Source: an uncultured Clostridia bacterium (GTDB lineage: Bacteria > Bacillota > Clostridia > Oscillospirales > Oscillospiraceae). From it: a stretch of DNA of 36,444 nt. The DNA is taken from contig CAMGRA010000002.1 in the NCBI GenBank assembly GCA_946061345.1, positions 1 through 36,444 on the forward strand, in the 5' to 3' direction. Each line of letters starts with the position of its first letter. The first letter of the stretch is position 1. Position numbers and translations under genes: made by a program. Of this stretch, positions 1,063-33,832 are shown in pieces. The notes under the pieces were generated by a model. The model made no database searches and had not been told where the DNA came from. It saw only the letters and a list, made by a program, of their open reading frames with translations.

Positions 1063-1141
1063 GAGGGCTTCCGCCCCAAAGCGGGCGCGGAAGATGCCAC
1101 TGTTTTTAGCGAAAAGACCGACTACAAGGGGATGTGAACAC

Positions 1142-1999: not shown

Positions 2000-2019
2000 T
2001 TGTTTTCGCAAAACGGCCT

Positions 2020-3276: not shown

Positions 3277-3294
3277 AGGCCAAACGAGATCAAC

Positions 3295-4377: not shown

Positions 4378-4409
4378 CCGCCGGGAAAGAAGAGAGCGTG
4401 GTGTGAAAT

Positions 4410-7812: not shown

Positions 7813-7859
7813 AAGACACGTGATACCGTCGAATTACACGATCTCAGGGGCAAGACACT

Positions 7860-11676: not shown

Positions 11677-11727
11677 AAACCAATTAAAATATTCATTTCA
11701 ATCGGTTTTCAACGCCGTTCCGGCGTT
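11671..11727. repeat. 57-bp dispersed repeat, copy 1
   Basis: tactgaaaaccaattaaaatattcatttcaatcggttttcaacgccgttccggcgtt; matches 33566..33622 with 2 mismatches by eye. Confidence 0.85.
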
Positions 11728-11880
11728 GCGTTTTCGCAATGGAAAGGTAAGCATCGCGATAATACGTCTCGTATCAATCACGATATCGCAATTGAAATGC
11801 GCTTTGCACATTTCAATTGGTGATTGGTTTGATTCTGTTCAGGAAATGATTCGACGTTCTACGGAAAAAGGAGAGAAAAA

Positions 11881-13356
11881 ATGAATAAGGCAATACGCTT
11901 TTATCTCAGCAGAAGAAACCCGCTGAGCTGGCTGGCTGCGTTGATGGCTGTGGCATCCGCCGTGCTTCAGATCCTGGCGCTCTGCTTCGGCCTGCAGTTG
12001 ACTACCGTGAACTTCTGGTTCCAGAAGGTCCTGCCCATCTGGATCGCCCTGGGCTTTGCCTTTATTGTTCTGGTTCGCGGGCCGAAGGAATTCTACCGCT
12101 CCACAAAGCCGGTATTCTGGACCTGCGTCTATTTTGCCCAGATCGCCCTGGACTGGAACCTGCAGCTGCAGGAGGCTCCCGGTCTTGCAGCGGAGCTGGG
12201 AGGCGGCTATGCCCTCTTCGGCTATAAGCGCTATGTCGCGGTCTGCTGGATCATCTACCTGGCGTTTTATTTCATTTACCGTATGTTCATGACGGGGAAG
12301 CTCAGGCATTATCTGATCCTGCTTTTTATGGGACTGCTGCCTTTTTCAGTGCTTCTGTATGATTTTATCTATTGCGTTCCCGGCCTGGCGCTGTGCGAAC
12401 TGATGAATAAGCTGGCGAACGTGCTTCTGGTGGGGTCCCTCTTCGCGGCGGTCCTGGGCCTGCGAATTTTCACCGATGGGAAATATCATCCAACCTGGGG
12501 CGACCGCGGCGATGGACGTCAGCTCCGCACCATTGATGGTATGTCACTTGTCGCCAACTATATTATGCCCAACCGCAACGGTGCCTCCAACTCCATCCAT
12601 GACAAGCTGGAGATCTCCAATATTGAACGTTACATTCACAAAAAACGCGCCGAGGGTATGGATAATTTCGGTATTACCCATGTGTTCCTGGCGGCTTATG
12701 TGCGCTGCGTTGCCAAATATCCCGGCATCAACCGCTTCCTGTCCGGCCAGCGGGTATTCCAGCGTGACGAGGATATCCAGTTCACCATGGCCATGAAAAA
12801 GGACATGCGCACCGACGGCGAGGAAACCATGATCAAGCTCCATCTGACCCAAACGGACACCTCCAGGGAGGTCTACGAAAAATTCAACAAGGCCTATGAG
12901 GAGGTCAAATCTACACCGCTGAACAGCAGCTTTGACGCTGTGGCGGGAGCGCTGGCGAGCATCCCCGGCCTGCTGCTGAAATTCGTGGTCTGGGTCCTCA
13001 AGGTCATGGACTATTTCGGTAAGCTGCCCAAATTCCTGCTGGAGGTCAGCCCGTTCCATGCCTCTGTGATCTTCACCTCCATGGGCTCTCTGGGCATCCC
13101 GCCCATTGTCCACCATCTCTATGATTTCGGCAACCTGCCGGTATTTTTGGCCTTCGGCAGAAAGTATCGCAAACAGGAGCTGGACGCGGAGGGCAATGTA
13201 GTCACGCGGCGTTATGTGGATTTTGTGATGAACTGTGACGAACGCACCGTCGACGGCTTCTATTATGCAACGGTGCTGAAATACTTCCACAAGCTTCTGC
13301 GCAACCCCGAGGTGCTGGACAACCCGCCGGAAGAAATTATCCGTGATATTGATTAA
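11881..13356 (+). CDS. Membrane protein with C-terminal 2-oxoacid dehydrogenase E2/CAT-like acyltransferase domain
   Basis: N-terminal ~200 aa with several hydrophobic helices; C-terminal 'FGITHVFLAAYVRCVAKYPGINRFLSGQRVF', 'FTSMGSLGIPPIVHHLYDFGNLPVFLAFGRKYRK', 'VDFVMNCDERTVDGFYYATVLKYFHKLLRNPEVLDNPP' parallel the E2 catalytic domain. Confidence 0.7.
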   Translation: MNKAIRFYLSRRNPLSWLAALMAVASAVLQILALCFGLQLTTVNFWFQKVLPIWIALGFAFIVLVRGPKEFYRSTKPVFWTCVYFAQIALDWNLQLQEAPGLAAELGGGYALFGYKRYVAVCWIIYLAFYFIYRMFMTGKLRHYLILLFMGLLPFSVLLYDFIYCVPGLALCELMNKLANVLLVGSLFAAVLGLRIFTDGKYHPTWGDRGDGRQLRTIDGMSLVANYIMPNRNGASNSIHDKLEISNIERYIHKKRAEGMDNFGITHVFLAAYVRCVAKYPGINRFLSGQRVFQRDEDIQFTMAMKKDMRTDGEETMIKLHLTQTDTSREVYEKFNKAYEEVKSTPLNSSFDAVAGALASIPGLLLKFVVWVLKVMDYFGKLPKFLLEVSPFHASVIFTSMGSLGIPPIVHHLYDFGNLPVFLAFGRKYRKQELDAEGNVVTRRYVDFVMNCDERTVDGFYYATVLKYFHKLLRNPEVLDNPPEEIIRDID

Positions 13357-13364
13357 CTGAAAAA

Positions 13365-13403
13365 ACGGTGCGCTGCAGATCTTCAAGACCTGCAGCGCAC
13401 CGT
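13365..13403. terminator. Bidirectional intrinsic terminator between convergent genes
   Basis: Perfect 14-bp stem ACGGTGCGCTGCAG/CTGCAGCGCACCGT, A-rich 5' flank and T-rich 3' flank. Confidence 0.85.
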
Positions 13404-13409
13404 ATTATA

Positions 13410-14387
13410 TTATGTGAGTGCTGCCAGAGCTTCTTTCAGTTGGCTTGCGTAGGCATCTACGGCGCTCTGGGGGAAGACGACGGAGGCCCGTCCGCCGAAG
13501 CCTGCCAGCCACCCCAGAAAGTTGGGGGAGAGGGATACTCTAACTGTCAGCGTAAAATGCTCGTCGCCGTCGGGAATGAGCAGGACATCCCGGCCAAAAC
13601 GGTCAACCACCACGCCGGCCAGGGCGTTTTCAAACCGCAGCTTGACCTGCTGCGTCTTTCCGCGGTACATGCCGAAGACCTCCCGTGAATAGGCGGCCGG
13701 GTCAAATTTCCGGCTTTCTTCAGTAAAGACGCGCTTCTGGCCCGTCAGGAAGATCTCTTCCATCTTGTCCACGCGGTAATGGGTGATGCCGTGCTTTCCC
13801 GTATAGGCGATGAGATAGTAATTCTCATTGTCCCAGAGCAGGGCGTAAGGACTGGCGGTACAGCGCCCCCGGCGGAAATGTTTCTTCAGATCCACGCCCC
13901 AGTCAAAATAGCGGAATACGACTTGGCTGTCTCGATCTATGGCTTCGTACAGGGTGTCGATGTTGGAAATGCTGGTATCGTTTTCCGTTTTCAGACGACC
14001 GGACAGGACGATCTGGCGCCGCAGCAGCTCCGCCTCATGGGTGCTGGACAGGGCGGCCAGCTTTTTGATCAGGGCGGACGACTGCCCGGCGGTCAAAAAC
14101 CTCGACGAGAGCACCGCGTCTACCAGCAGCTTTAACTCCGAAAGCTCAAAATCCCGCTGGGCAACGTAGTAGCCGCCGTTGCTGCCCCGACGGTAGAGGA
14201 CCTCGGTCCCGTATTCGTTCAGCATACTGATATCGTCGTAGATGCTCTTTCGTTCGGCACGGATGCCCCTGGATGCCAGATAGTCCACCAGGGCCGTCAC
14301 CTTTGCCGGATGCTTTTCATCGGTGTTTTGCCGCAGGTAATCCCGCAAATAGAGCAGTTTCAGCTTCTGATTCTCTGATTTTGCCAT
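13410..14387 (-). CDS. WYL-domain transcriptional regulator (HTH + WYL)
   Basis: 'KLKLLYLRDYLRQNTDEKHPAKVTALVDYLASRGIRAERKSIYDDISML' HTH; 'ALLWDNENYYLIAYTGKHGITHYRVDKMEEI' WYL-type core. Confidence 0.9.
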   Translation of the reverse strand: MAKSENQKLKLLYLRDYLRQNTDEKHPAKVTALVDYLASRGIRAERKSIYDDISMLNEYGTEVLYRRGSNGGYYVAQRDFELSELKLLVDAVLSSRFLTAGQSSALIKKLAALSSTHEAELLRRQIVLSGRLKTENDTSISNIDTLYEAIDRDSQVVFRYFDWGVDLKKHFRRGRCTASPYALLWDNENYYLIAYTGKHGITHYRVDKMEEIFLTGQKRVFTEESRKFDPAAYSREVFGMYRGKTQQVKLRFENALAGVVVDRFGRDVLLIPDGDEHFTLTVRVSLSPNFLGWLAGFGGRASVVFPQSAVDAYASQLKEALAALT

Positions 14388-15909: not shown

Positions 15910-15938
15910 TCGTAAACCAAAAGAAAGTGAGGTGCTGT

Positions 15939-17687
15939 ATGCTGCCTGATTTCTTTGAAACACTGAACAGTTACTTCCAAACCGACGGCAGAGGCTTTGC
16001 CGAGGTGTTCTGCGCGGTCTGGTGCTATCTTGCGCCGGTGCTGGGCGTCCTCATTCTTTGGCGCTGCGCCAAGCCCCTGCTGCGTTTCCGCCGTGAGCCG
16101 GAGACCTGGGCGTGGCTGGTCATGCCCGACGGTCAGCAGCTTCCCGTGACCCACTGGGAGAATATCATCGGCCGCGGCCGTGGCTGCGACATTGTGGTGA
16201 ATCTGTCCACGGTCTCCCGCAATCACGCGGTCCTGACCCGCTATGACGACGGAAGCTGGTCCCTGACGGACATCGGCTCCCGGGGCGCGGTATCGGTCAA
16301 CGGCAAGACCGTGGATATCTGCGCCCTGCAATACGGCGACGTGATCTCCCTCGGCGGCGTGGAAATGGTTCTTGCTCCTACCACGGCGGAGGAGGTGGAG
16401 GAGCAGAAATACTACCGCACCCGCCCCGCCGCCATTGCAAGCCCCGGCCTGACCCTCACCATCCTGACTGTATTTCAGCTCCTGACGGCGCTGCAATTCT
16501 GGATGAACGGTAAGGAGGATGCCATTTCCACAGTCGTATTGGGCTTTATGGCGGTCATCGGCCTGGAATGGCTGCTGTTTATGGCCCTGAAGATCATGCG
16601 CCGCAGCAGCTTTGAGGTGGAGACCCTGGCGTTCTTCCTTTCCACCATCGGCCTTTCCGTCATTGCGTCCTCTGCGCCGACGGAGGTGACCAAGCAGCTC
16701 ATTTGTATTGCCGGCGGCATTTTTATCTATCTGGTCATCGGCTGGTCCATGCGGGACCTGAACCGCGCCAAGCGCTTCCGCTATCTGGCAGCGGTGGCAG
16801 GCCTGCTCCTGCTGGCGGCGAACCTGGTCCTGGGCCGGGAGATCAACGGCGCGAAAAACTGGATCCAGATCGGCTCCATGTCCTTCCAGCCCTCGGAGCT
16901 GGTCAAGCTGTGTTTCCTGTACGTGGGCGCGTCCACCATGGACCGCATCGTGACCAAGCGGAATATGCTCTCTTTCATCATTTATTCCGCGGCCATCTGC
17001 GGCTGCCTGGCGCTGATGAACGACTTCGGCACCGCGCTGATCTTCTTTGTGGCCCTGGTGGTCATCTGCCTCATGCGAAGCGGCAGCTTTTCCGCTCTGG
17101 CGCTGCTGGGAACGGTGGTGTGCTGCGGCGTTTTGCTCCTGCTGGTCATCGACATCCCGCCCCATGTCCTGCGGCGTTTTTCCACCTGGGGCCATGCCTG
17201 GGAGGATCCGCTGAACGGCGGCTATGACCAGGTCAAGGCCATGACCTGTATCGCCTCCGGCGGCCTGTTCGGCCTCGGCGCGGGCAACGGGGCCTTCCGC
17301 TACTACGTTATGGCGGCGGACACGGACTATGTGTTTGCCTTCGTATGCGAGGAATGGGGCCTTATTCTGGGACTGCTCCCGGTCCTTGCCATCATTCTGC
17401 TGGGTGTCTTTGTGGCCCGCTCTGCAGCCATCGGGCGCAGCAGCTTCTATACCATCGGTGCCTGTGCGGCGGTGGCTATTATGATGACCCAGACGATTTT
17501 GAACGTGTTCGGCACCATGGACATCCTGCCTATGACCGGCGTTACGTTCCCCTTTGTGTCCAACGGCGGTTCCAGTATGCTCTCGTCCTGGGGACTTTTG
17601 GCGTTTATCAAGGCTGCCGACACGCGGCAAAACGCCAGCTTCGCGGTGAGGACCGCCAAGGCTGAGGAGGTGGAGCCGTATGAATAA
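15939..17687 (+). CDS. FtsW/RodA/SpoVE (SEDS) family protein with N-terminal FHA domain
   Basis: FHA: 'IIGRGRGCDIVVNLSTVSRNHAVLTRYDDGSWSLTDIGSRGAVSVNGKTV'. SEDS: 'GAKNWIQIGSMSFQPSELVKL', 'NVFGTMDILPMTGVTFPFVSNGGSSMLSSW'. GTG-rich leader; ATG 15939 has AAAGTGAGG upstream. Confidence 0.93.
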   Translation: MLPDFFETLNSYFQTDGRGFAEVFCAVWCYLAPVLGVLILWRCAKPLLRFRREPETWAWLVMPDGQQLPVTHWENIIGRGRGCDIVVNLSTVSRNHAVLTRYDDGSWSLTDIGSRGAVSVNGKTVDICALQYGDVISLGGVEMVLAPTTAEEVEEQKYYRTRPAAIASPGLTLTILTVFQLLTALQFWMNGKEDAISTVVLGFMAVIGLEWLLFMALKIMRRSSFEVETLAFFLSTIGLSVIASSAPTEVTKQLICIAGGIFIYLVIGWSMRDLNRAKRFRYLAAVAGLLLLAANLVLGREINGAKNWIQIGSMSFQPSELVKLCFLYVGASTMDRIVTKRNMLSFIIYSAAICGCLALMNDFGTALIFFVALVVICLMRSGSFSALALLGTVVCCGVLLLLVIDIPPHVLRRFSTWGHAWEDPLNGGYDQVKAMTCIASGGLFGLGAGNGAFRYYVMAADTDYVFAFVCEEWGLILGLLPVLAIILLGVFVARSAAIGRSSFYTIGACAAVAIMMTQTILNVFGTMDILPMTGVTFPFVSNGGSSMLSSWGLLAFIKAADTRQNASFAVRTAKAEEVEPYE

Positions 17688-19463: not shown

Positions 19464-22400
19464 TTATTTGCCGAACTTTTCCACAAAGCGCATGAGCACC
19501 GTTGCGATTTCCGCGCGGGTGGCGCTGCTTGCGGGGAGAATGTAGGTTTTGCCGCCCTCGGCGGAGCCTTGGATGATCTCCTCGGCAACGGCCCAGCTCA
19601 TGGCCTCTTTTGCGTAGCTGCGGACCTGATCTGCGTCGGGGAAGCCGTCCAGATCGGCACGGGCTTCGCTGACCTTGCCCTTGTAGTCCGTGTAGCGGTA
19701 GAGGATCGTAACCATCTGCTCGCGGGTCACGGGATCGTCCGGGGCAAATACGCCGTCGGAAACGCCGTTGACGATTTGGTTGGCGGCGGCCCAGCAGACC
19801 GCGTCGGTGTACCAGCTTTCGTCCACATCCTTGAACGGATTCTCAAGGCCGGAAACGTCGGGGTTGCCCTCTGCCCGGTACAGGACTGTGACCAGCATGG
19901 CACGGGTCATCTCCGTCTGCGGCTCAAAGGTGTCTTTTCCCATGCCGTTCATCAGACCGTTGACGCTGGTGTATTTCACCGCCTCGTAGAACCAGTCGGT
20001 CTCATTGACATCGGTATAGGGATTCACGAAGGGGACTTCCGGCATCTCTATGGTCACATCGCTCATGTCATAGAGGGAGGTCTGGCCGCCCAGGAAGCGG
20101 TAGTAGGCAGTCAAAGCGTAGTAGCCCTGCTCTGTTGCCATACCGTCACGGTCACCGCTGGGAAGATGACAGAAGCCACCGCCTTCCACATAATAGTCAC
20201 ACAGGGCGTCAACTGCACTGCGTCCGTTCTTGATAAAACGGACATCGGTGTTCGGGTCGATACCCAAGGCTGTCAGGGCGGCGATCACCTGAGCGGAAGA
20301 TTCCGCGTTGGCGGTATTCCAGGAGCCGTAGCCGCCGTCTTTCTGCTGAGCTTCGGAGAGAAGCGCGAGGGCAGCGTCAACAGCCACCTTTACCGCTTCA
20401 TTTCCGCTGTAGTAGGGAGCCAGTGCCTGCAGCGCCATGGCGGTCATATCCGGATCGCCGATGTCGCCGGAGAGCGCCCAGCCGCCGTCCTCCAACTGCG
20501 CGGAGAGAATGTAGGCGATCAGCTTTTCGCGGGTGACCTGTTCTGCGCCCTCGGGTGCGGCGGGGATCTCATACTTGCCGCTGTCAAAGGCAATCAGTGC
20601 CCAGACCGGGCCGTTGATGCCCTGCTTTGTCAGGTATGCCATATCGGTCAAACCCTGCAGCAGATCGTGACCGTCCACGTCGGTGACATCCTTTCCCATG
20701 GCAGTCAGGGCGAGAATGACGCGGGAATTGTCCGTGGATTTCGAGCGGTGGAGCTGCTCTGCATCGTTGATATTCTGCTTAACGTAGTCAACCACGTTGT
20801 CATAGTAGGCATCAGGCACGTCCCGGCCGCTTCTGGCAAGGCCAATGATGATCCAATCACCGCCAACGGAGCCGACCGCGGGTGTTTGCTCCGCGGACAG
20901 AGCTTCCAGATAGCTGCCGGTGGCCAGATAGATGGTTTCCACGTCGGCGTGGGGCAGCTTCAGGATCGCAAGAAGGGCCTCCGCCTCCGTCAGCACGTCG
21001 TAGTTGGTGACCAGGACCTTTTGGGCATCGGTCAGGGCATCGTAAGCCGTCCGGGCGGCGTTGATGGCCGTTTCAGATTCCGCCGTGACGGCGCCGATGG
21101 CGTCGATCAGCCCGATGACTGCATCGGCTGCAAGCTGATCCTTTGCCGCCTGGGTCATTCCCAGGGCGAAAACGTTGCTGCTGTCGTTTTTATAGTAGAG
21201 CGCGCCGTCGCTGCCTGCAATGACGCTGCAAACACAGAACTGTTCATAGCCTGCCGCGTCGTACAGGGTGGTCTGGACTGCCTCAGAGCCGTCGGCCTTT
21301 GCCTTGATCACGTTGAGTCCGCCTGGGTTGGCGTTATAGGTGACATAGAGATAGACATAGCCGCTTGCCTCATAAGCAGTGGAAAGTAGGATGGAACACT
21401 GGGGATAGGCCGGTTCCTCCACGGACCAGAGGATCTCCATCGAGTCCGCGTCCACGGCAATGATATTATTGCTGCCGGACCAGTTTCCCACGCCGAGATA
21501 AACGATGCCGTTATAGACGACCGGCGTGCCGGTGGAAGCGCTGCCGCAGGCCGAGCAGTCCTTCACGGTCAGATCGGACAGAACGCCGGTTTCTGCATCC
21601 AGGGCAGCGCGGCAAAGGCTGGCGTTGTTCAGAGTGAAGTAGACCTTGCCATCCTCATAGCACACGGTGGAGCGAATCGAGCCGTCACCAACAGTCAGAT
21701 CAGAAATGAGAGCGCCGGTATCCTTGTCGCGGCTGAAGATATGGCCGCTGTCGCTGCCGCAGACCACATAATCACCGACGACTACCGCGCCTGCCCAGTA
21801 GTAGCCCATTTCGTCCGTCTGCCGCCAAACCAGAGAGCCGTCCGCTGCATCCAGACAGACGAAGGCGTATTCCCCGTTGTAGCCGAAGCCTACGTAGATC
21901 TTCCCGTCGGCGCAGGCAATGGGGCTCTGTGCCTGACCGCCCAGAGCGTCGGAATAGGTCCAGAGCGCCTCCAGTGTTTTGGCGTTGAAGGCCTGAATGG
22001 TGCCGCCGCCCAACGGGCAGAAGATGATCCCGTCTGCATAGGCAGCGGGTACGGAGCCCCAGCTTGTCGAGGCGCACATCTGCGCGGAAGCCAGAACCTC
22101 GCCGGTCTCCAGGCTCAGCTTTTTGATGGAATTGCCGTAGAGCACCACCAGACTGTCGTCTACGATCAGCATGGGGCTGGGAGCATCCGACCAACCGGAG
22201 GAGTGCTTGACGGCCCACTTCAGTTCCGTTTCTTCCGCACTGCGCGGCGTAGCGGCGCTTGTCACGCCGTTATTTTGGCTGTTGCCGCGGAAGCTGGGCC
22301 AATCCGCGCCGACAGAAGGATCCACCTCGTCCGGCAGATCGACGGTGATGGTGTAGGTGGTGGGGGTCGCGCCGGAATTCATGGATTCGCCGGTGCCGAC

Positions 22401-23096
22401 CTCCAGGGTAAGCACGGTGCCGTCCGTTACGGGAACGGTGGCGGTGCGCTTATACTCTGTTTCGCCCGCCATAATGTGTACCTGAAAATTCTTGTTGGTC
22501 GCGGTGGGCGTCACGACGATGCCTTCCGTGCCGGCAGGAAGCGCCAGGGTATATTCCAGCGTTTCGGACGCGAAAGCAGGGGAGAGGGTACCCTTGCTGA
22601 AGGCGAGGGCCTTCAGACTGGTGTCGTTGCTGCCCCAGTCGCTGCCCAGATCTGTGCCGTAATCGCAGGAGTACAGGATGGCGATCTCGTCGCCTGCTTC
22701 CAGAGTTCCGTCAGCGACGGTGTAGTGCTCAAAGCCGTAGTTGGTAAACCAGTCGTTCAGGGTGCCCATCCAGCCCGACATGGCGCCGCCGTCATAAGCG
22801 GCTAGGCCGTCCACACTGCTGATGTAGCCGCTGTCCAGGCCCTCAGCAGTCAGATTTGCTTCCTCCAGTGCCACACCGACACAGCTCAACATGGTAGAGC
22901 TTTCGTCGATCTCTACCCATGTGTCCACAAGGGTACCGGCCCAGGGAGCGCCGTCTTCCACGGAAAGTGTGTTGTTCTCCACGGTCACGTGTACCTGATC
23001 CTTTGTCTCGTCCCGCTCGGCGGCAAGGGCCGAGAAGGGGACAAGGCTCAGGACCATGGCAAGGACCAGGAGAAGGCTTACAATTCGTTTCTTCAT
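19464..23096 (-). CDS. Cobalamin-riboswitch-associated SLH surface protein: DUF4430, cadherin-like, PQQ-like propeller, FIVAR-like helical segment, prenyltransferase-like barrel, 3 SLH
   Basis: Start at ATG 23096 (GGAGG 7 nt upstream), signal peptide MKKRIVSLLLVLAMVLSLVPFSALAA. DUF4430: 'SGWMGTLNDWFTNYGFEHYTVADGTLEAGDEIAILYSCDYGTDLG'. Propeller: repeated 'ADGIIFCPLGGGTIQAFNAKTLEALWTYS'. Barrel: 'EDGGWALSGDIGDPDMTAMALQALAPYY', 'QKDGGYGSWNTANAESSAQVIAALTALG'. SLH: 'NPYTDVNETDWFYEAVKYTSVNGLMNGMGKDTFEPQTEMTRAMLVTVLYR' x3. Confidence 0.85.
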   Translation of the reverse strand: MKKRIVSLLLVLAMVLSLVPFSALAAERDETKDQVHVTVENNTLSVEDGAPWAGTLVDTWVEIDESSTMLSCVGVALEEANLTAEGLDSGYISSVDGLAAYDGGAMSGWMGTLNDWFTNYGFEHYTVADGTLEAGDEIAILYSCDYGTDLGSDWGSNDTSLKALAFSKGTLSPAFASETLEYTLALPAGTEGIVVTPTATNKNFQVHIMAGETEYKRTATVPVTDGTVLTLEVGTGESMNSGATPTTYTITVDLPDEVDPSVGADWPSFRGNSQNNGVTSAATPRSAEETELKWAVKHSSGWSDAPSPMLIVDDSLVVLYGNSIKKLSLETGEVLASAQMCASTSWGSVPAAYADGIIFCPLGGGTIQAFNAKTLEALWTYSDALGGQAQSPIACADGKIYVGFGYNGEYAFVCLDAADGSLVWRQTDEMGYYWAGAVVVGDYVVCGSDSGHIFSRDKDTGALISDLTVGDGSIRSTVCYEDGKVYFTLNNASLCRAALDAETGVLSDLTVKDCSACGSASTGTPVVYNGIVYLGVGNWSGSNNIIAVDADSMEILWSVEEPAYPQCSILLSTAYEASGYVYLYVTYNANPGGLNVIKAKADGSEAVQTTLYDAAGYEQFCVCSVIAGSDGALYYKNDSSNVFALGMTQAAKDQLAADAVIGLIDAIGAVTAESETAINAARTAYDALTDAQKVLVTNYDVLTEAEALLAILKLPHADVETIYLATGSYLEALSAEQTPAVGSVGGDWIIIGLARSGRDVPDAYYDNVVDYVKQNINDAEQLHRSKSTDNSRVILALTAMGKDVTDVDGHDLLQGLTDMAYLTKQGINGPVWALIAFDSGKYEIPAAPEGAEQVTREKLIAYILSAQLEDGGWALSGDIGDPDMTAMALQALAPYYSGNEAVKVAVDAALALLSEAQQKDGGYGSWNTANAESSAQVIAALTALGIDPNTDVRFIKNGRSAVDALCDYYVEGGGFCHLPSGDRDGMATEQGYYALTAYYRFLGGQTSLYDMSDVTIEMPEVPFVNPYTDVNETDWFYEAVKYTSVNGLMNGMGKDTFEPQTEMTRAMLVTVLYRAEGNPDVSGLENPFKDVDESWYTDAVCWAAANQIVNGVSDGVFAPDDPVTREQMVTILYRYTDYKGKVSEARADLDGFPDADQVRSYAKEAMSWAVAEEIIQGSAEGGKTYILPASSATRAEIATVLMRFVEKFGK

Positions 23097-23214
23097 TGTC
23101 ATACCTCCAAGCAAAGAATTGGTTGAAGTGTCTTGCATCCGGCCTGCCTTTTCGGCAGACGCGATAGCGCGGCCCCTTTGCCGGGACAGTCCTTTTGCAA
23201 GGCGGCAAAGAAAA

Positions 23215-23244
23215 GCTGCGGCGACCGATCATGGTCGCCGCAGC
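23215..23244 (-). terminator. Intrinsic terminator in the leader of the SLH gene (probable riboswitch expression platform)
   Basis: 12-bp perfect stem GCTGCGGCGACC/GGTCGCCGCAGC followed on the minus strand by TTTTCTTT, between the aptamer and the start codon. Confidence 0.8.
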
Positions 23245-23304
23245 CGTTTTTCCGCGCACAAAGCAGCCAGCGCTCCGTACTTGCAGAGCCTGACCGAGGA
23301 CACC

Positions 23305-23488
23305 GCTTGAGCAGGTCTCCTGACTTGCGTATTTACAGCACCCCCGCAGCCTTCTCAGAGCAAAGCTCCAATGACCGGCTTTCGCCATGCAGGGTGCCTC
23401 CACGCTTACAGTGGCGGTACCGTTCGTGAGTTTCACACGATTCCCTATTCTCCCGTGGGCTTGCCTGCAAGCCGTTGGGCACTCAAAC
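23305..23488 (-). ncRNA. Cobalamin riboswitch aptamer
   Basis: Minus-strand sequence GTTTGAGTGCCC...AATAGGGAATCGTGTGAAACTCACGAACGGTACCGCCACTGTAA...CATTGGAGCTTTGCTCTGAGAAGG...AAGTCAGGAGACCTGCTCAAGC. GCCACTG B12 box, terminal GTCAGGAGACC, P1 closing GTTTGAG/CTCAAGC. Confidence 0.9.
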
Positions 23489-23508
23489 GTTATTCACTTT
23501 CTGCTTAA

Positions 23509-23537: not shown

Positions 23538-23620
23538 TCGAATCCTGAAAAAAGGATTGCGCCGGAAAGAAAAATGTGCTACCATGAATACAACGGCAGT
23601 TGCCTGTATACTTTATATAC

Positions 23621-23760
23621 GAATCACGGTTGAATTGGAATGGGAAAATCCCAACGGTACCAAGCCGCCGTAGACGGACAGAAAGCCGCACAAGGCCATT
23701 GGAGCGATCTGAGAAGACCTGTGCAAAGGGTGTCCGGAGTCGGAATACGGACCGTGATCG
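23621..23760 (+). ncRNA. Compact/variant cobalamin riboswitch aptamer
   Basis: P1 ATCACGGT (23623-23630)/ACCGTGAT (23751-23758). Core GGGAAAATCCCAACGGTACCAAGCCGCCGTA and GGCCATTGGAGCGATCTGAGAAGACC parallel the minus-strand riboswitch core (AACGGTACCGCCACTGTAA; GTCATTGGAGC..GCTCTGAGAAGG). Terminal GTCGGAATACGGACC. Confidence 0.75.
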
Positions 23761-23832
23761 AAGCAGAGAGACTCTTGGGGATGGTCTGTCGGCTTTTTCT
23801 GCGCCCTGCGAATGGGCTTATTTGTGCGTCTG

Positions 23833-23857
23833 AAAGTCCCCGAACGGGGACTTTTTT
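23833..23857 (+). terminator. Intrinsic terminator between variant riboswitch and DUF4430 gene
   Basis: AAAGTCCCCgaaCGGGGACTTTTTT, immediately before the SD GGAGG of CDS 23878. Confidence 0.88.
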
Positions 23858-23877: not shown

Positions 23878-25146
23878 ATGAAAAAGCGGATCGCAAATTT
23901 CATTATGATCGCCGTCATCGTGCTCATAGCCGCCGTTGGAGTTCTGGCGGTGGGGCATATCCAGGGCTGGTTCGACAAGGCCGACGGGGAGAACGCCGTG
24001 CTTTCCGCAGTGCGCGGGATCGTGACCGTGGAGCGCGGCGGCGTTGCCTATGATGCCGAAGCGGGCACCGTTCTCCGGCAGGGAGACCGGCTGACGGCTT
24101 CTTACGGTGCCACGGCAACGATTCAGGTGGGCGGCGGCTGGCTGACCATGGGCGAAAAGACGGAGCTGTCGGTCACGGAGCCTTCGGCAGACGGCTTTGC
24201 CGCGGCGGTGGCCTCCGGCGAGGTATTTTTCTGCGCCGAAACGCCCATGACAGTCGCCTTTGACCGTTACGAGGCCGTTTTTTTTGATGCCGTGGCATCT
24301 CTCAGCGTTCGCAGCGGCGCCCGGAGCATCAGTGTCTATGAGGGAACTGTCTCCTGCGAAGATAACGAAGCCCGGGCAGGGCAGATGCTCAACCTGATCG
24401 GGGATGACTGCAGTGTAGCGGCCTGCCGGATCGAGTCGCTGAATGATTTTTTGATCGTACAGCTCCGCGCCGCCAACGAGACCCGCTCACTCTGCTTCAC
24501 CAATGAGGACCTCGACCGGCTGGTGGCAGACCGTCAGGCCTCCATGCAGGCGCTTTTGACAGCTCCGACCCAACCGGAGGCCTCTGGGGAGCCGTCAGAG
24601 GAAACAGAGCCTTCTTTCGCAGAAACGCAGGAAAACACCGCGCCCTCCATAGCGCCGACAGAGAAGCCGACGGAAGCTACACAGGCTGCATCCCCGACGG
24701 AAACGGAGCCCTCCGAGACCCAGCCGGAGGAGACGGAACCTCCCGTAAAAAACACCTGCACTGTTTCCATCCGATGCGACACGATTCTGAATAACATGGA
24801 CAATCTTGCGCCGGGCAAAGCGGAATTTGTCCCCGGCGACGGCTTCATTCTCTATCCCGTCACCGTGGAATTTGAGGAGGGTGAGACGGCCTTTGACGTG
24901 CTGACCCGCGTCTGCACAACCTATGGCATCCAGATCGAATACAGCTGGACGCCCATGTATGACAGCTACTACATCGAGGGCATCGGCCACCTGTACGAAT
25001 TTGACTGCGGCAGCGAGTCGGGCTGGATGTATAAGGTCAACGGCTGGTTCCCCAACTACGGCTGCTCCGTCTACACGCTGAAAGACGGCGACAGCATTGC
25101 CTGGTGCTATACCTGCACCGGCCTGGGGGCCGACATCGGCGGCTGA
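23878..25146 (+). CDS. Membrane-anchored extracellular protein: FecR-like domain, Pro/Thr/Glu-rich linker, C-terminal DUF4430 (transcobalamin-like C-terminal) domain
   Basis: N-terminal TM 'IANFIMIAVIVLIAAVGVLAVGHI'; 'GIVTVERGGVAYDAEAGTVLRQGDRLTASYGATATIQV' FecR-like; 'ESGWMYKVNGWFPNYGCSVYTLKDGDSIAWCYTCTGLGADIGG' DUF4430. Confidence 0.8.
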   Translation: MKKRIANFIMIAVIVLIAAVGVLAVGHIQGWFDKADGENAVLSAVRGIVTVERGGVAYDAEAGTVLRQGDRLTASYGATATIQVGGGWLTMGEKTELSVTEPSADGFAAAVASGEVFFCAETPMTVAFDRYEAVFFDAVASLSVRSGARSISVYEGTVSCEDNEARAGQMLNLIGDDCSVAACRIESLNDFLIVQLRAANETRSLCFTNEDLDRLVADRQASMQALLTAPTQPEASGEPSEETEPSFAETQENTAPSIAPTEKPTEATQAASPTETEPSETQPEETEPPVKNTCTVSIRCDTILNNMDNLAPGKAEFVPGDGFILYPVTVEFEEGETAFDVLTRVCTTYGIQIEYSWTPMYDSYYIEGIGHLYEFDCGSESGWMYKVNGWFPNYGCSVYTLKDGDSIAWCYTCTGLGADIGG

Positions 25147-25158
25147 GTGGAGTAGCAT

Positions 25159-26028
25159 ATGAAACGAGACGCTTTTTCCCAGTATCATCCCGCGGTGAAT
25201 TTCGTGTTCTTCGTCGGAGCCATCGGCTTCGGCGTGGTGATCCAGCATCCTGCCTATGCGGCGGCGGGCTGTGTCTCCGCCGCGCTCTATTATCTTTTGC
25301 TGCGGGGCAGGTCTGCATGGAAGCTGATCCTTTCCATGCTCCCGCTGGCAGCGCTGCTCACCCTTATCAATCCGCTGTTCAACACCTCCGGCGAGCACAT
25401 TCTCTTCCGGGTGTTCGGACGGCCCTATACCCTGGAGGCGCTGTACTACGGCATGGCCATCGCCGCAATTTTTGTGGTGATGATGCTCTGGTTCGGCTGC
25501 TATAACGCCGTGCTGACCAGTGACAAGTTTACCGGACTGTTCGGAAATCTGATCCCGGCTTTGTCCCTGCTTTTGGTGATGGTCCTGCGGATGATCCCCA
25601 ACTTCTTTAGAAAAATGAAGCAGATCATCGGTGCGCGGCGATCCATCGGCAAGGGCGCCGAGAAGTCCGGCAGCACCAAAGAGAAGATCGGTCAGGGAAT
25701 GACCGTATTATCAGCGCTGACGGACTGGGCGCTGGAGGGTAGTGTCGTGACTGCCGACTCCATGCGCGCCCGGGGCTACGGGACTGCCCGGCGCACCAGC
25801 TTTCAAATCTACCGCATGACCCTGCGGGACTGGGTGCTGCTGGCGCTCATGGTTTTTCTGGCGGCAGGCGTGATCGTCGCAGGCGGCGTCCGGGCTGAAT
25901 TTACCCCGATTCTGTCCATTGCGCCTCTGACCTGGGGCTTTGCTGCTTACTGCGTATTTCTCTCCATCCCCACGGCACTACACATCAAGGAGGCCCTCCA
26001 ATGGCGCATTTCCATATCCAAAATCTGA
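25159..26028 (+). CDS. ECF transporter transmembrane (T) component
   Basis: 'TADSMRARGYG' and 'MKQIIGARRSIG' EcfT-type A-R motifs; multi-TM. Confidence 0.88.
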   Translation: MKRDAFSQYHPAVNFVFFVGAIGFGVVIQHPAYAAAGCVSAALYYLLLRGRSAWKLILSMLPLAALLTLINPLFNTSGEHILFRVFGRPYTLEALYYGMAIAAIFVVMMLWFGCYNAVLTSDKFTGLFGNLIPALSLLLVMVLRMIPNFFRKMKQIIGARRSIGKGAEKSGSTKEKIGQGMTVLSALTDWALEGSVVTADSMRARGYGTARRTSFQIYRMTLRDWVLLALMVFLAAGVIVAGGVRAEFTPILSIAPLTWGFAAYCVFLSIPTALHIKEALQWRISISKI

Positions 26029-27662
26029 GCTTTTCTTACCCTAATGCGAAAAAGGAATCCCTGAGCGGGGTGACCCTCAGCGTTGAAAAAGGGGAGTATG
26101 TGGTCCTCTGCGGCAAGAGCGGCAGCGGAAAAACCACCCTCCTGCGGCACCTGAAATCCGTGCTGACGCCCCACGGCAAGCGCAGCGGACAAATTCTGTT
26201 CTGCGGTGTGCCCATAGATGAGGTGAGCAAGCAAGACCAGGCCTCCAAGATCGGCTTTGTCATGCAGAACCCCGACGATCAGATCGTCACGGACAAGGTC
26301 TGGCACGAATTGGCCTTCGGACTGGAAAGTCTGGGCTGCGACCAAAAGACCATGCGGCTCCGGGTGGCGGAAATGGCCAGCTATTTCGGCATCCAGGGCT
26401 GGTTCCACCGAAATGTGGCGGAGCTTTCCGGCGGTCAGAAGCAGCTTCTGAATCTGGCCTCCATCATGGCGATGCAGCCGGAGGTGTTGATTCTGGACGA
26501 ACCGACCAGCCAGCTTGACCCCATTGCCGCGTCGGATTTCCTGAATACGGTGCGTAAGATCAACCTGGAGCTGGGCACCACCATCCTCATCACGGAGCAC
26601 CGGCTGGAGGATATTTACCATGCCGCTGACCGGGTGGTCGTCATGGACGGCGGAAAGATCATCGCCAACGATACGCCTCGCAGGGTGGGGGAGCAGCTTT
26701 ACGCCCAAAATAACGAGATGTTCGCGGCGCTTCCCACGCCGGTGCGGGTGTTCTACGGGGCAAAGGCCGAGGGAGACTGCCCACTGACCGTCCGTGAGGG
26801 GCGCAACTGGCTGTCAAAAACTTTTGAAAACCGCACGCTGGCGGCGGTGGAGCCTGACAGTGAGCCTGCCATGGAGGAAGTAAGGAATCCTGCCTTGAAG
26901 GTAAAGGAGGCCTGGTTCCGCTACGAAAAGGACAGCCCGGACGTGCTGCGGGGTGTCAGCTTTGAAGTGCCTGCCGGCAGCCTGTTTGCCGTCGTCGGCG
27001 GCAACGGCGCGGGCAAGTCCACCGCTCTGAAAGCCGTCTGCGGCATCTGCAAAATCTACCGCGGCCGGGTGGAGATCTTCGGAAAGGACCTGAAAAAGTA
27101 CCGCTCCGGGGAGCTGTTTCAAAACTGCCTTGCCATGCTGCCCCAGGATCCCAAAAGCCTGTTTGTAAAAAAGACCGTCCGGGAGGAATTGGCCGAGATG
27201 TGCCGGGAGGAGGACAAGATCGCTCAGGCCGCCGCCCTCTGCGAGATCGAATCGCTGATGGACGCCCATCCCTATGACCTGTCCGGCGGCGAGCAGCAGA
27301 GAGCAGCCCTTGCCAAGGTTCTGCTGACCCAGCCGCGCCTCCTGCTTTTGGACGAGCCGACCAAGGGCCTGGACAGCTTCTTCAAGCAGAAATTCGCCCA
27401 AATACTGCGCAAGCTCAGACAGCAGGGCATGACCATTGTCATGGTGTCCCATGACGTGGAGTTCTGCGCTGAGCACGCCGACCTTGTGAGTATGTTCTTT
27501 GACGGCCAGATCCTCACCACGGACACGCCCCACCGTTTCTTCGGCCAGAACAGCTTCTACACCACGGCGGCAAACCGCATGAGCCGCTGCGTGTTCCGCA
27601 ACGCCGTCACCGCCGGGGATGTGGTGGCCCTGTATCAAAAGAACCGGGAGGGAAGCACATGA
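26001..27662 (+). CDS. ECF transporter ATPase, two ABC domains fused in one chain
   Basis: Two Walker A motifs (GKSGSGKTT, GGNGAGKST), two signature motifs (LSGGQKQ, LSGGEQQR), two Walker B motifs (VLILDEPT, LLLLDEPT). Confidence 0.95.
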   Translation: MAHFHIQNLSFSYPNAKKESLSGVTLSVEKGEYVVLCGKSGSGKTTLLRHLKSVLTPHGKRSGQILFCGVPIDEVSKQDQASKIGFVMQNPDDQIVTDKVWHELAFGLESLGCDQKTMRLRVAEMASYFGIQGWFHRNVAELSGGQKQLLNLASIMAMQPEVLILDEPTSQLDPIAASDFLNTVRKINLELGTTILITEHRLEDIYHAADRVVVMDGGKIIANDTPRRVGEQLYAQNNEMFAALPTPVRVFYGAKAEGDCPLTVREGRNWLSKTFENRTLAAVEPDSEPAMEEVRNPALKVKEAWFRYEKDSPDVLRGVSFEVPAGSLFAVVGGNGAGKSTALKAVCGICKIYRGRVEIFGKDLKKYRSGELFQNCLAMLPQDPKSLFVKKTVREELAEMCREEDKIAQAAALCEIESLMDAHPYDLSGGEQQRAALAKVLLTQPRLLLLDEPTKGLDSFFKQKFAQILRKLRQQGMTIVMVSHDVEFCAEHADLVSMFFDGQILTTDTPHRFFGQNSFYTTAANRMSRCVFRNAVTAGDVVALYQKNREGST

Positions 27663-28384
27663 AACGGTCTACGGTATCTTCCATTCTCACGGTTCTTCTG
27701 CTGATCCCCGCGACCCTCTATCTGGGAACCAAGCTCCCCGGCCGCTGGTATTACCTGACCAGCACGCTCATTATCATTGAGACCATGATCCCCTTTTTTC
27801 TGGCCTTTGAAAAGCGCAGACCTCAGGCCAGGGAACTGGTGACCATTGCGGTCATGGCGGCCATTGCGGCCGTATCCCGCGCCGCTTTCGCCTTCATCCC
27901 GAATTTTAAGCCCATTGTGGGCATCATCATGATCACGGGCATCGCCTTCGGCGCCGAGGCGGGCTTCCTGACGGGCACCGTCGCCGCCTTTGCCAGCAAC
28001 TTTTTCTTCGGCCAGGGACCCTATACCCCGTGGCAGATGATGGCTTACGGCTTCGGCGGCTTCCTGGCTGGCCTGCTCTTCCACAAAAAGCGGAAGCTGC
28101 ATCAGAAGCCTGTGCTCTATCTGGCGGTCCTCACAGCCTTTGGCTTCGTCGGCATTGTCGCCGTGGTGGGGCCGCTGCTGGACTGCTGCACCATCTTCAC
28201 CACGGGCACGCAGCTCACCTGGGCCTACGCGCTGGCCTGCTTTGCCTCCGGCTTCCCCATCAATGTGACCCATGGCATTGCCTGCGGATTGACCATGCTG
28301 CTTTTGAGCAAGCCCCTGCTTGACAAGCTGGACCGCCTGAAAACCAAATACGGCATGATGGAGGCCGGTACCGATGGGCTTTGA
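27659..28384 (+). CDS. ECF transporter substrate-binding (S) component, probable corrinoid specificity
   Basis: 241 aa, about 6 TM; 'AAIAAVSRAAFAFIPNFKPIVGIIMITGIAFGAEAGFLTGTVAAFASNFFFGQGPYTPWQMMAYGFGGFLAG' S-component fold; specificity inferred from context. Confidence 0.8.
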   Translation: MKRSTVSSILTVLLLIPATLYLGTKLPGRWYYLTSTLIIIETMIPFFLAFEKRRPQARELVTIAVMAAIAAVSRAAFAFIPNFKPIVGIIMITGIAFGAEAGFLTGTVAAFASNFFFGQGPYTPWQMMAYGFGGFLAGLLFHKKRKLHQKPVLYLAVLTAFGFVGIVAVVGPLLDCCTIFTTGTQLTWAYALACFASGFPINVTHGIACGLTMLLLSKPLLDKLDRLKTKYGMMEAGTDGL

Positions 28385-29255
28385 ATGTTACCATCCGGCG
28401 ATCGGCCTGATCTATTTTGCTGCGGTCATCGCCGCGACGATCTGCTTTCAGCAGCCTGTCTTTCTGGCCATCTCTTTTCTCTGCGCTTTTGCCTACTCCG
28501 TGAAGCGGAACGGCAGGCGGGCGCTCCTCTTTGACCTCTGTCTGATCCCGCTCATTTTGCTGTTTGCCGGCTTTTATTCCGGCTATCACCACTTCGGCGT
28601 GACGGTTCTGGACAGGAATTTCATCGGCAACCGTATGACGCTGGAATCCCTCCTGTACGGCCTGACCCTGGGGACCGTGACCGCCGCAGTTTTCATGTGG
28701 ATGAGCTGCGTCTTTTCAATTTTTACGGCGGATAAGGTGGTCTACCTGTTCGGCAGGGTCAGCCCAAAGCTGTCCCTGTTTCTCTCCATTGTCCTACGGA
28801 TGGTGCCCCGGCTCAAGGTCCAGGCGAAAAAGGTCAGTACGGCGAGGAAAGCCATCGGCAGGGGAGCGGGTCAGGGCAGTTTCTTTCGCCGCCTTTCCAA
28901 CGGTATCAAGCTGCTGTCGATCCTGATCACCTGGCTGCTGGAATCCATGGCGACCATCTCCGATTCCATGCGCAGCCGCGGCTATGGCCGGAAAGGCCGC
29001 ACCGCCTTTTCCATCTACCGCTTTGACAGCCGGGACCGAAGCGTGGTCATCGGGATCTTCACCTGCCTGACGCTTCTGGCCATGGCGGTCCTCCTCGGGC
29101 AGACCGGCATGGACTTTGACCCCAGACTCCACATGAACCCGATCACGCCTCTGTCCTGCCTTTTCTATCTGGGCTACGGCGTCCTTTGCCTGCTGCCCCT
29201 GGGACTGGAAGTGACGGGAGAGCTTCGCTTTGCACACCTGAGGAAAAGCATATGA
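28374..29255 (+). CDS. Second ECF transporter transmembrane (T) component
   Basis: 'SDSMRSRGYGRKGRTAFSIYRF' and 'KKVSTARKAIGRGAGQ' parallel the first T component. Confidence 0.88.
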   Translation: MGFECYHPAIGLIYFAAVIAATICFQQPVFLAISFLCAFAYSVKRNGRRALLFDLCLIPLILLFAGFYSGYHHFGVTVLDRNFIGNRMTLESLLYGLTLGTVTAAVFMWMSCVFSIFTADKVVYLFGRVSPKLSLFLSIVLRMVPRLKVQAKKVSTARKAIGRGAGQGSFFRRLSNGIKLLSILITWLLESMATISDSMRSRGYGRKGRTAFSIYRFDSRDRSVVIGIFTCLTLLAMAVLLGQTGMDFDPRLHMNPITPLSCLFYLGYGVLCLLPLGLEVTGELRFAHLRKSI

Positions 29256-30004
29256 AACGACAAAACTGGTACCTGTCCACCATCGACCCGCAGGCGGAAA
29301 AGTTGGTGCGGGAATACGGCCTGGGCTTGGAGATCGCCGAATTCTGCACTGCCTCCAACCTGGACGACAACCTGAAAGAGACAGACAGGGTTGTGGGCGA
29401 AAAAATAAAATACGCAGACCACTTCATTCTCCACGGCCCCTTTAACGAGCTGTTTCCCTGCGCCGTTGACCCGAAAGCAAGGGAGCTGGCCTCCTTTCGT
29501 TATGGCCAGGCCCTGGAACGTGCCCGAGCCTACGGCATCGGAAAGGTCGTTCTTCACGCGGGCTTTAACCCCTATTTATATTATCCCTGCTGGTTTGAAG
29601 AGCAGTCAATTGACTTTTGGCGGGCTTTTGAGATCCCCGACGGGATGACTGTCTGCCTGGAAAACGTTTTGGAAGAGAAGCCGGAGATGCTGGCAAATAT
29701 CCTACAGGCGGTGGACAGCCCGAAGCTGCGGATGTGCCTGGATTTGGGCCATGTGAGCGCCTATTCCAAGATCCCGGCGGAGGACTGGCTGCGGATCTGT
29801 GCGCCCTGGCTTTCCCATTTCCACATTCACAACAACGACGGCTCCCGGGATACCCACAGCGGCTTGACGGAGGGAATCCTTCCCGTGGAATCGCTGCTGC
29901 ACCTGGCGGAGAAGCTGTGTCCCGACGCGACCTTTACCCTTGAACTTCCCGAAGCAGGCACTTCTGTCTGCTGGCTGAAAGAAAAGGGCTTTCTGGAGGA
30001 ATGA
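29252..30004 (+). CDS. cbiR: Xylose isomerase-like TIM barrel (AP endonuclease 2 superfamily); candidate CbiR cobamide-remodelling hydrolase
   Basis: 'HFILHGPFNELFP', 'KVVLHAGFNP', 'VCLENVLEE', 'LRMCLDLGHVSAYS', 'HFHIHNNDGSRDTHSGLTEG', 'FTLELPE' match the AP_endonuc_2 fold metal sites. CbiR assignment rests on family plus context. Confidence 0.6.
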   Translation: MKRQNWYLSTIDPQAEKLVREYGLGLEIAEFCTASNLDDNLKETDRVVGEKIKYADHFILHGPFNELFPCAVDPKARELASFRYGQALERARAYGIGKVVLHAGFNPYLYYPCWFEEQSIDFWRAFEIPDGMTVCLENVLEEKPEMLANILQAVDSPKLRMCLDLGHVSAYSKIPAEDWLRICAPWLSHFHIHNNDGSRDTHSGLTEGILPVESLLHLAEKLCPDATFTLELPEAGTSVCWLKEKGFLEE

Positions 30005-30006
30005 CC

Positions 30007-31089
30007 ATGGAATTACTGGACCTGGAGATCAAGCCGCTGGACGAGACGGCAATGTCTGCTGCCCGTGCGCGGCAGGCGCAGCTTGCCAAACCGCCCGGAA
30101 GCCTGGGACGGCTGGAGGAATTGTCCGTGCAGCTTGCGGGCGTCACGGGAAAAGTGCAGAGCACCATCAAAAAGAAGCATCTTCTGGTCTTTGCCGCCGA
30201 TAACGGCGTGGTGGAGGAGGGCGTGTCCAGCGCGCCCCGGTCCGTGACCCTGCAGCAGACGGTGAACCTGACACGGGCCAAGACGGGCGCCTCTGTGCTG
30301 GCAAAGCACTTTGGCTGCGGGATCACGGTCTGTGATGTGGGCGTGAATGCCGACATCACGGAGAAAGCCGTTTTGGACCGAAAGATCGCCTACGGGACGG
30401 GGAATATCGCCCACGGCTCTGCCATGACGCGGGAACAGGCCCTGACTGCCATCCGCACCGGCATAGAGCTGGCCCAAAGCACCGACGCGGACGTGCTGGG
30501 AGTCGGTGAAATGGGCATCGGCAATACCACGACCTCCTCTGCTGTGCTGGCGGTGCTGCTCGAAGCGGATGTGGAGGCTGTCACAGGCCGCGGCGGCGGC
30601 ATTACGGACGAGAGTTTCCGCAAAAAGAAGGACGTGATCCGCCGGGCCATCGCCGTGAACCAGCCGAACAGATTCGACGTGGTGGACGTGCTTGCAAAGG
30701 TGGGCGGCTTCGACATTGCCGCTATGTGCGGCGCGTTCCTGGGAGCCGCCGCGACACAGCGCCCGGTGGTGATCGACGGCTTTATCTCCGCGGTTGCCGC
30801 CTTGTGTGCGGTGAGGCTCCGTCCCAACGTCCGGGGCTACCTGATCCCCAGCCACGCCTCCTATGAGATCGGCTACCGGCTTGCCATGGATGCCATGGAG
30901 CTGCAGCCCATGCTTCTGCTGGGGATGCGCCTCGGGGAGGGAAGCGGCTGCCCCCTGGCCTTTGAGATCCTCTCTGCCGCCTGCGCGGTCATGAACCACA
31001 TGGCGACCTTTGACCAGGCCGGCATCAACGATGACTACTTAGACGAGATCCGCGTCGGCGACAAATTCACCGTGGAGGGAAAAGCATGA
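30007..31089 (+). CDS. cobT: Nicotinate-nucleotide--dimethylbenzimidazole phosphoribosyltransferase
   Basis: 'QAQLAKPPGSLGRLEELSVQLAG', 'VFAADNGVVEEGVSSAPRSVTLQQTVN', 'GVGEMGIGNTTTSSAVL' diagnostic of CobT. Alternative start 30001. Confidence 0.97.
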   Translation: MELLDLEIKPLDETAMSAARARQAQLAKPPGSLGRLEELSVQLAGVTGKVQSTIKKKHLLVFAADNGVVEEGVSSAPRSVTLQQTVNLTRAKTGASVLAKHFGCGITVCDVGVNADITEKAVLDRKIAYGTGNIAHGSAMTREQALTAIRTGIELAQSTDADVLGVGEMGIGNTTTSSAVLAVLLEADVEAVTGRGGGITDESFRKKKDVIRRAIAVNQPNRFDVVDVLAKVGGFDIAAMCGAFLGAAATQRPVVIDGFISAVAALCAVRLRPNVRGYLIPSHASYEIGYRLAMDAMELQPMLLLGMRLGEGSGCPLAFEILSAACAVMNHMATFDQAGINDDYLDEIRVGDKFTVEGKA

Positions 31090-31631
31090 CAGTCTTTGTA
31101 AGCGGCGGCGCAAAAAACGGAAAATCCTCGTTTGCCCAGGATCTGGCTGTGAAATTAGCCAAGGGCGGCAAGCACTACTACGTCGCCACCATGATCCCCA
31201 GTGACGAAGAAGACCGGGAGCGCATCCGAAAGCACCTGGCTGACCGGGAAGGACTGGGCTTTGAGACCATCGAGTGCGGGAGAAACATCCTTTCCTGCCT
31301 GGATAAGGCGGAAAAGGACGCCACCTTTTTGCTGGACAGCGTGACGGCGCTGCTGATGAACGAGCTGTTTCCGAATCCTGCCGACGGAAAAATGGATACG
31401 GACGCGGCCTGGCGCTGCGCAGAGGACCTGGTCACCTTTGCCCAAAGCGTCCGAAACGCCGTGTTCGTCAGCGATTATATCTACTCTGACGCCGCCTGCT
31501 ATGATGAGACTACAGAGGTTTACCGTGCCGGTCTTGCGGCCATTGACCGGCGCCTGGTAGCGGCCTGTGACACAGTGGTCGAAGCGGCGGCAGGAAATTT
31601 TATCGTCCACAAGGGGGAAGCGCTCCTATGA
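31086..31631 (+). CDS. cobU: Adenosylcobinamide kinase / adenosylcobinamide-phosphate guanylyltransferase
   Basis: 'VFVSGGAKNGKSSFAQDLA' P-loop, 'HYYVATMIPSDEEDRERIRKHLADREGLGFETIEC', 'TFLLDSVTALLMNE'. Confidence 0.88.
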   Translation: MTVFVSGGAKNGKSSFAQDLAVKLAKGGKHYYVATMIPSDEEDRERIRKHLADREGLGFETIECGRNILSCLDKAEKDATFLLDSVTALLMNELFPNPADGKMDTDAAWRCAEDLVTFAQSVRNAVFVSDYIYSDAACYDETTEVYRAGLAAIDRRLVAACDTVVEAAAGNFIVHKGEALL

Positions 31632-33750: not shown

Positions 33751-33832
33751 TTAAAATGAAGAGCTATCTGTTTCGGATGCTTCGGATGCATTTCAGAGGA
33801 TGCTTATAAAGAATTATAAAGGAGACGAAAAG

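Follow-up and report, generated by a model that had tools for sequence, protein, structure and literature searches.

The window considered here, by which we mean the whole stretch of DNA analysed (36,444 nucleotides; GenBank assembly GCA_946061345.1, contig CAMGRA010000002.1, positions 1-36,444, forward strand), comes from an uncultured, gut-type Clostridia bacterium of the family Oscillospiraceae, whose genome is 56% complete. It carries the gene of a large multidomain surface protein on the minus strand and, divergent from it, an operon with importer and corrinoid salvage genes. The open reading frame of the surface protein extends over 19464-23138 (1224 amino acid residues, aa). An earlier reading made from the letters alone (the sequence-only reading) had placed the protein at 19464-23096, and these coordinates are right because the ATG at 23096, the likely true start, has a GGAGG ribosome-binding site seven bases before it and is followed by the signal-peptide-like sequence MKKRIVSLLLVLAMVLSLVPFSALAA (judged by eye). 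The regulatory elements and the parts of the protein are as follows.

23610-23770, plus strand: cobalamin riboswitch of the divergent operon (Rfam RF00174, 36.4 bits)
23832-23855, plus strand: terminator hairpin and U-run after this riboswitch (fold, z = -3.9)
23293-23501, minus strand: cobalamin riboswitch of the surface-protein gene (Rfam RF00174, 94.4 bits)
23214-23245, minus strand: terminator hairpin (13 bp) and U-rich run, between this riboswitch and the surface-protein gene (fold, z = -4.3)
19464-23096, minus strand: surface protein, about 1210 aa, likely start codon to stop (open reading frame; GGAGG/ATG spacing)
23019-23096, minus strand: signal-peptide-like segment (sequence by eye)
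22644-23015, minus strand: transcobalamin-type SLBB (DUF4430) domain, aa 42-165, with invariant Tyr105 and Trp123 (Pfam, alignment, structure model, PDB fold matches)
22314-22631, minus strand: Cadherin-like beta sandwich, aa 170-275 (Pfam)
21135-22304, minus strand: PQQ/BamB-type beta-propeller, aa 279-668, whose family is linked to B12 regulation (Pfam, PDB sequence matches, genomic context)
20955-21134, minus strand: helical segment, aa 669-728, present in several copies in relatives (homologous repeats)
20040-20954, minus strand: alpha/alpha toroid, aa 729-1033 (structure model, PDB fold matches, 57-sequence alignment)
19473-20018, minus strand: three SLH domains, cell-wall anchor (Pfam)

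Both riboswitches exceed the gathering threshold of RF00174 (31.5 bits). They stand back to back, each with a terminator as its expression platform; a riboswitch followed by a hairpin and a U-run is the usual layout of an off-switch acting through transcription termination. The one at 23293-23501 lies on the same strand as the surface-protein gene and, with its terminator, bears out the upstream B12 riboswitch and the B12 regulation claimed in the sequence-only reading, from which the riboswitch of the divergent operon was absent. A third cobalamin riboswitch of the same genome was found at locus L153 (contig C34, 7601-7824, minus strand); downstream of it is an open frame of 2394 codons encoding an SLH surface protein that carries GLUG and Ig-like domains, and in which neither an SLBB domain nor a toroid was detected.

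Pfam matches on the surface protein passed for the three SLH domains (E = 2e-30), PQQ_2 (E = 9e-16), Cadherin-like (E = 5e-8) and DUF4430 (E = 1e-5; 26.3 bits against a cut-off of 23.8). Together with the model of the toroid, these results agree with the list of domains given earlier, and the SLH domains and the signal-peptide-like start, the latter judged by eye, place the protein in the SLH-anchored class and support the surface location that had been proposed.

A single-domain structure prediction of the SLBB domain (predicted local distance difference test, pLDDT, 94.9) was compared with the PDB using Foldseek. Among the best 19 matches (E no higher than 0.0031, probability 1.00), 17 were transcobalamin, haptocorrin or intrinsic factor, and the remaining two were two chains of 3u7z, a bacterial protein from Ruminococcus gnavus; the match after these had an E value of 7e-3. 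The beta domain of human TC2 also matched the SLBB profile in register, although weakly (E = 0.54). The aromatic position of Tyr105 is invariant across all 37 SLBB sequences and aligns with a tyrosine of the TC2 beta domain; it is presumably the position of the residue discussed in the pertinent passage of Burroughs et al. 2007 (PMC1796856).

The model of the toroid (pLDDT 94.8; predicted template modelling score 0.92) confirmed an alpha/alpha toroid, for which the Pfam matches to Prenyltrans (20.7 bits against a cut-off of 26.5) and to the SQHop cyclase family were below cut-off. It matched the cobalamin-bound bovine transcobalamin structures 2v3n and 2bb6 (E = 4e-5, probability 1.0, template modelling score 0.50) at ranks 28 and 31. 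Because these matches rank among prenyltransferases and terpene cyclases, the toroid alone is no proof of a B12 role, and most of the weight for such a role is borne by the SLBB domain and the context. Of the transcobalamin-like parts recognised in the sequence-only reading, the SLBB domain is thus strongly upheld, whereas the toroid stands at the level of the fold, but not ahead of prenyltransferases. The surface protein shares with the transcobalamin family (transcobalamin, intrinsic factor and haptocorrin) an extracellular location, an SLBB beta domain and, at fold level, the alpha/alpha toroid. In that family the toroid is N-terminal and the SLBB domain C-terminal; here the order is reversed and the propeller separates the two parts, as had been claimed. 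The Cadherin-like domain between them and the SLH anchor are further differences from the family, and corrinoid binding by the surface protein is putative.

Sixty loci surrounding homologs of the toroid, the propeller and the N-terminal domains were retrieved, chosen by homology alone with B12 ignored, and 55 of them had a toroid. In these 55 toroid loci, an SLBB gene lay on the same strand in 52, EcfT together with a fused ATPase (EcfAA') was present in 38, and a same-strand cobalamin riboswitch in 33. Over their 0.76 Mb the loci contained 43 cobalamin riboswitches, and the 24 control genomes, about 50 Mb in all, contained 17. The enrichment, roughly hundredfold or more, is approximate because the control scan used a faster prefilter and included a few of the same loci. 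The toroid and the SLBB domain were encoded in one open reading frame in 17 loci and on adjoining genes in most others. The full chain (SLBB, cadherin-like, propeller, helical segment, toroid, SLH) was found in three species, all from a single genus, and in one other lineage, where it lies within a longer protein (L134); the open frame of the latter (5412-14336, 2975 codons) has two SLBB domains, a propeller, helical repeats, a toroid and SLH domains. In Ruminococcus bromii ATCC 27255 and YE282 (L209, L216), a shorter protein has the same SLBB-cadherin-toroid order as the window protein and precedes genes for SLBB, EcfT and ATPase/S, the ECF genes being of the CbrT type. Unlike the window protein, it has no propeller, SLH domains were not detected, and the open frames are of 635-701 aa. 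CbrT was again the sole significant PDB match of the S part in ATCC 27255, and a cobalamin riboswitch was seen upstream in YE282 (L216).

The divergent operon of the window, all of it on the plus strand, consists of the following genes.

23881-25146, plus strand: second SLBB (DUF4430) protein, apparently membrane-anchored at its N-terminus (Pfam, E = 3e-17; hydrophobic N-terminus by eye)
25159-26028, plus strand: predicted EcfT membrane subunit, first copy (BLAST counterpart of EcfT genes in related loci; no Pfam match)
26001-27662, plus strand: fused double energy-coupling factor (ECF) ATPase (ABC_tran twice, ECF_ATPase_1)
27659-28384, plus strand: ECF S subunit, CbrT-like (cobalamin/cobinamide; PDB match CbrT 6fnp)
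28374-29255, plus strand: EcfT (CbiQ family), second copy (Pfam)
29186-30004, plus strand: CbiR-like cobamide-remodelling enzyme (AP_endonuc_2; NF041277 CbiR, E = 7e-12, below the equivalog cut-off)
30001-31089, plus strand: CobT (profile matches)
31086-31631, plus strand: CobU (profile matches)
31628-32368, plus strand: CobS (profile matches)
32584-33309, plus strand: CobC-like alpha-ribazole phosphatase (NCBIfam, E = 6e-38, below cut-off)

For the S subunit, CbrT (6fnp, E = 8.6e-10) was the sole significant match in the PDB, so that the operon holds a CbrT-like S subunit, a T subunit of the CbiQ family and a double ATPase, as expected for an ECF-CbrT importer. Transport of both cobalamin and cobinamide has been demonstrated for ECF-CbrT of Lactobacillus delbrueckii (PMC5997447), which has the same type of S subunit with an ECF module. 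Unlike that system, the window has a dedicated operon in which the ATPase is fused and EcfT is present in two copies, along with SLBB capture proteins and enzymes of corrinoid salvage. CbiR is a cobamide-hydrolysing enzyme that serves remodelling (PMC7733943). The marker of corrin-ring synthesis, CbiC, was found in none of the 17 genomes of the genus, the control genomes being positive; we therefore see no de novo corrin-ring synthesis in the genus, with salvage genes present. This absence and the genes of the operon (SLBB, CbrT-type ECF, CbiR-like and Cob enzymes) together indicate a neighbourhood for corrinoid salvage, uptake and remodelling. B12-binding domains were present in 8 of the 17 genomes; B12-dependent enzymes (PF02310 and NrdJ) were not found in the window's own genome, which is uninformative at its level of completeness. 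As to gene order, the two EcfT-type subunits flank the single fused ATPase and the S subunit, and the same T-ATPase-S-T order occurs in loci L165 and L210. In most relatives there is a single EcfT, often along with an ATPase-S fusion. The CbiR-like enzyme of this Clostridia corrinoid operon also occurs in L116 and L165.

The propeller had been compared with BtuG, the B12-binding propeller of Bacteroides. BtuG binds cobalamin with femtomolar affinity, and the two are alike as surface beta-propellers, BtuG acting in B12 uptake, an analogy of function only. A link by descent is unsupported because the propeller appears from its sequence to belong to the BamB/PQQ-type family, its relatives among the PDB matches listed being BamB and quinoprotein (PQQ) propellers with no entry named BtuG; we rejected a BtuG homolog on these grounds. 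The window system also differs from that of BtuG in having no BtuB and no outer membrane. A profile of the propeller clade found homologs in 22 of the 388 genomes of the class. When the 21 other genomes were considered, chosen by propeller homology alone, a same-strand cobalamin riboswitch lay within 4 kb upstream of the propeller in 11, and among genomes with a single such riboswitch it preceded the propeller in 7 of 8. The 20 propeller loci that were fetched had an SLBB gene nearby in 15 cases and an ECF ATPase nearby in 11. This linkage suggests that the propeller belongs regularly to such B12 systems. The toroid was not detected in the fetched region of several of the propeller loci (e.g. 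L264, L269, L277 and L136-L138); L136, L137 and L138 are riboswitch-led operons with a toroid-free propeller protein ahead of SLBB and ECF genes. From its genomic context the propeller may be an alternative capture head, and in the window protein it would serve as a further binding head or as a platform for docking. We propose tentatively, and with more doubt than confidence, that the PQQ-type propeller is an unrecognised cobamide-binding head of Gram-positive B12 uptake, which would have arisen separately from BtuG and could take the toroid's place as the surface protein leading SLBB/CbrT-ECF operons; the window protein would then join both heads and relay corrinoids to the membrane SLBB protein and the importer.

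The analysis shows the domains and their folds, both riboswitches and their terminators, a CbrT-like importer and a linkage conserved across many genomes, and these observations support the corrinoid-capture role that the sequence-only reading had suggested. From the SLBB match, the CbrT-type importer, the riboswitches and the linkage of the toroid loci, B12 capture is very well supported, binding itself being what we infer from them. We consider, with a probability of about 0.85, that the surface protein is a cell-surface cobamide-capture protein, in which the SLBB domain and the toroid hold a corrinoid that is passed to the CbrT-type ECF importer and then remodelled, under riboswitch control. 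When corrinoid is low, both riboswitches would stop favouring termination, and read-through would allow the whole system to be made. The SLH domains would fix the surface protein to the cell wall and display the SLBB domain and the toroid, which would close round a corrinoid in the manner of transcobalamin's beta and alpha domains. The second, membrane-type SLBB protein would probably then receive the corrinoid and hand it to the CbrT-like S subunit, and inside the cell the CbiR-like and CobT/U/S/C enzymes would remodel it. Neither the domain order nor the inserted propeller need prevent a joint site, because separately made alpha and beta domains of human transcobalamin assemble only when cobalamin is added (PMC5599065); by analogy, this may serve as a precedent for a site formed from domains far apart in the chain or on separate proteins.

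Several points weigh against this interpretation. An above-threshold riboswitch was lacking in 22 of the 55 toroid loci, some of which are at contig edges. In many relatives the SLBB domain and the toroid are on separate proteins, so the partner of the window toroid could be the second SLBB protein. The models of the two domains were predicted separately, and the host genome is incomplete, as given above. Prenyltransferases and terpene cyclases are as near to the toroid in fold as transcobalamin, and the sequence-level matches of the toroid are to cyclases only; as these enzymes lead both kinds of match, the toroid might be a prenyltransferase or terpene cyclase carried on the surface protein and unrelated to B12. 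The secreted location, the B12 riboswitch and the linkage to SLBB and CbrT-type ECF genes make this scarcely credible, transcobalamin has the same fold, and the DXDD motif of squalene-hopene-type cyclases aligns as D-x-D followed by a residue other than D. We rejected an ordinary cyclase on the genomic context and this incomplete motif. Cadherin-like, propeller and SLH domains are frequent in adhesins, and SLH proteins are many in the genus, but a general cell-wall adhesin with a chance resemblance to transcobalamin and incidental B12 regulation is highly improbable, since, in other families, enrichment beside ECF genes and cobalamin riboswitches is seen for each of the three domain families (toroid, SLBB and propeller).

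Two further alternatives concern which part binds and what is bound. The propeller could be the main corrinoid binder, similar to BtuG by convergence, with the SLBB domain and the toroid as parts for docking to the membrane SLBB protein and the importer. The riboswitch counts upstream of the propeller and the propeller-led SLBB/ECF operons in which no toroid was detected speak for this possibility, but we regard it as unlikely, because most relatives have no propeller, including those closest in architecture and R. bromii with the same SLBB-cadherin-toroid core, and the BamB/PQQ fold family frequently serves protein-protein contacts. A better candidate, to which we give somewhat less than even odds, is that the same capture and import machine has an incomplete corrinoid such as cobinamide or a spread of cobamides as its main natural ligand, and not B12 itself. 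The cobalamin riboswitch family, however, senses complete corrinoid cofactors, and complete cobalamin is what proteins of the transcobalamin fold family bind. The CobT/U/S/C and CbiR-like enzymes of the operon, and the ability of CbrT to carry cobalamin and cobinamide alike, favour such a ligand; the choice would leave the mechanism of the cobamide-capture protein unchanged.

The capture idea itself is not new. The passages of Burroughs et al. 2007 on these proteins (PMC1796856) describe bacterial SLBB domains fused to toroids on either side, SLBB-propeller fusions with the propeller taken as a possible tether, and wall anchors; they also report CbiO/CbiQ operons in organisms lacking key B12 synthesis enzymes, propose B12 scavenging, and propose the transfer of such genes from bacteria to animals. 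The window system has the same parts and falls within the class predicted there, with a secreted SLBB and toroid protein, CbiO/CbiQ-type genes nearby and no complete B12 synthesis. The earlier claim of a novel architecture is therefore right only in part, as SLBB with a toroid in either order, the SLBB-propeller fusions, the anchors, the operons and the scavenging role had already been proposed there; those passages mention neither riboswitches nor CbrT-type S subunits, and neither SLH anchoring nor a single chain with all of the domains. New here are the riboswitches with terminators, the identification of CbrT, the wide statistical linkage, the relative in R. bromii and the finding that the propeller clade is linked to B12. 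BtuH of Bacteroidetes is likewise an accessory surface B12 binder of a riboswitch-linked uptake locus, and one Firmicutes homolog of it is encoded close to a predicted ECF cobamide transporter (PMC8941943). The binding domain of BtuH was reported to be without known structural homologs (PMC8941943), whereas the SLBB domain of the window matches transcobalamin. A literature search, with most subscription journals outside it, found no experimental B12-binding study of any bacterial DUF4430/SLBB-toroid member.

The window also contains a surface polysaccharide cluster (860-11676) with LicD, several glycosyltransferases, EpsG and a flippase-like protein, an FHA domain fused to an FtsW/RodA-type protein and followed by a penicillin-binding protein gene (15927-17687), and the first part of a large surface protein with BspA-type leucine-rich repeats, which is cut by the window end (33800-36442).

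Little is known about B12 capture by Gram-positive gut bacteria without corrin synthesis. In the window locus, a bacterial surface protein with the fold of a human-type B12 carrier is connected to B12 riboswitches and an importer of the CbrT type, and Ruminococcus bromii, a gut species available in culture, offers a place for testing the capture system. The finding also bears on the proposal, made in the passages of Burroughs et al. 2007 cited above, that animal transcobalamin was acquired from such bacteria (PMC1796856).

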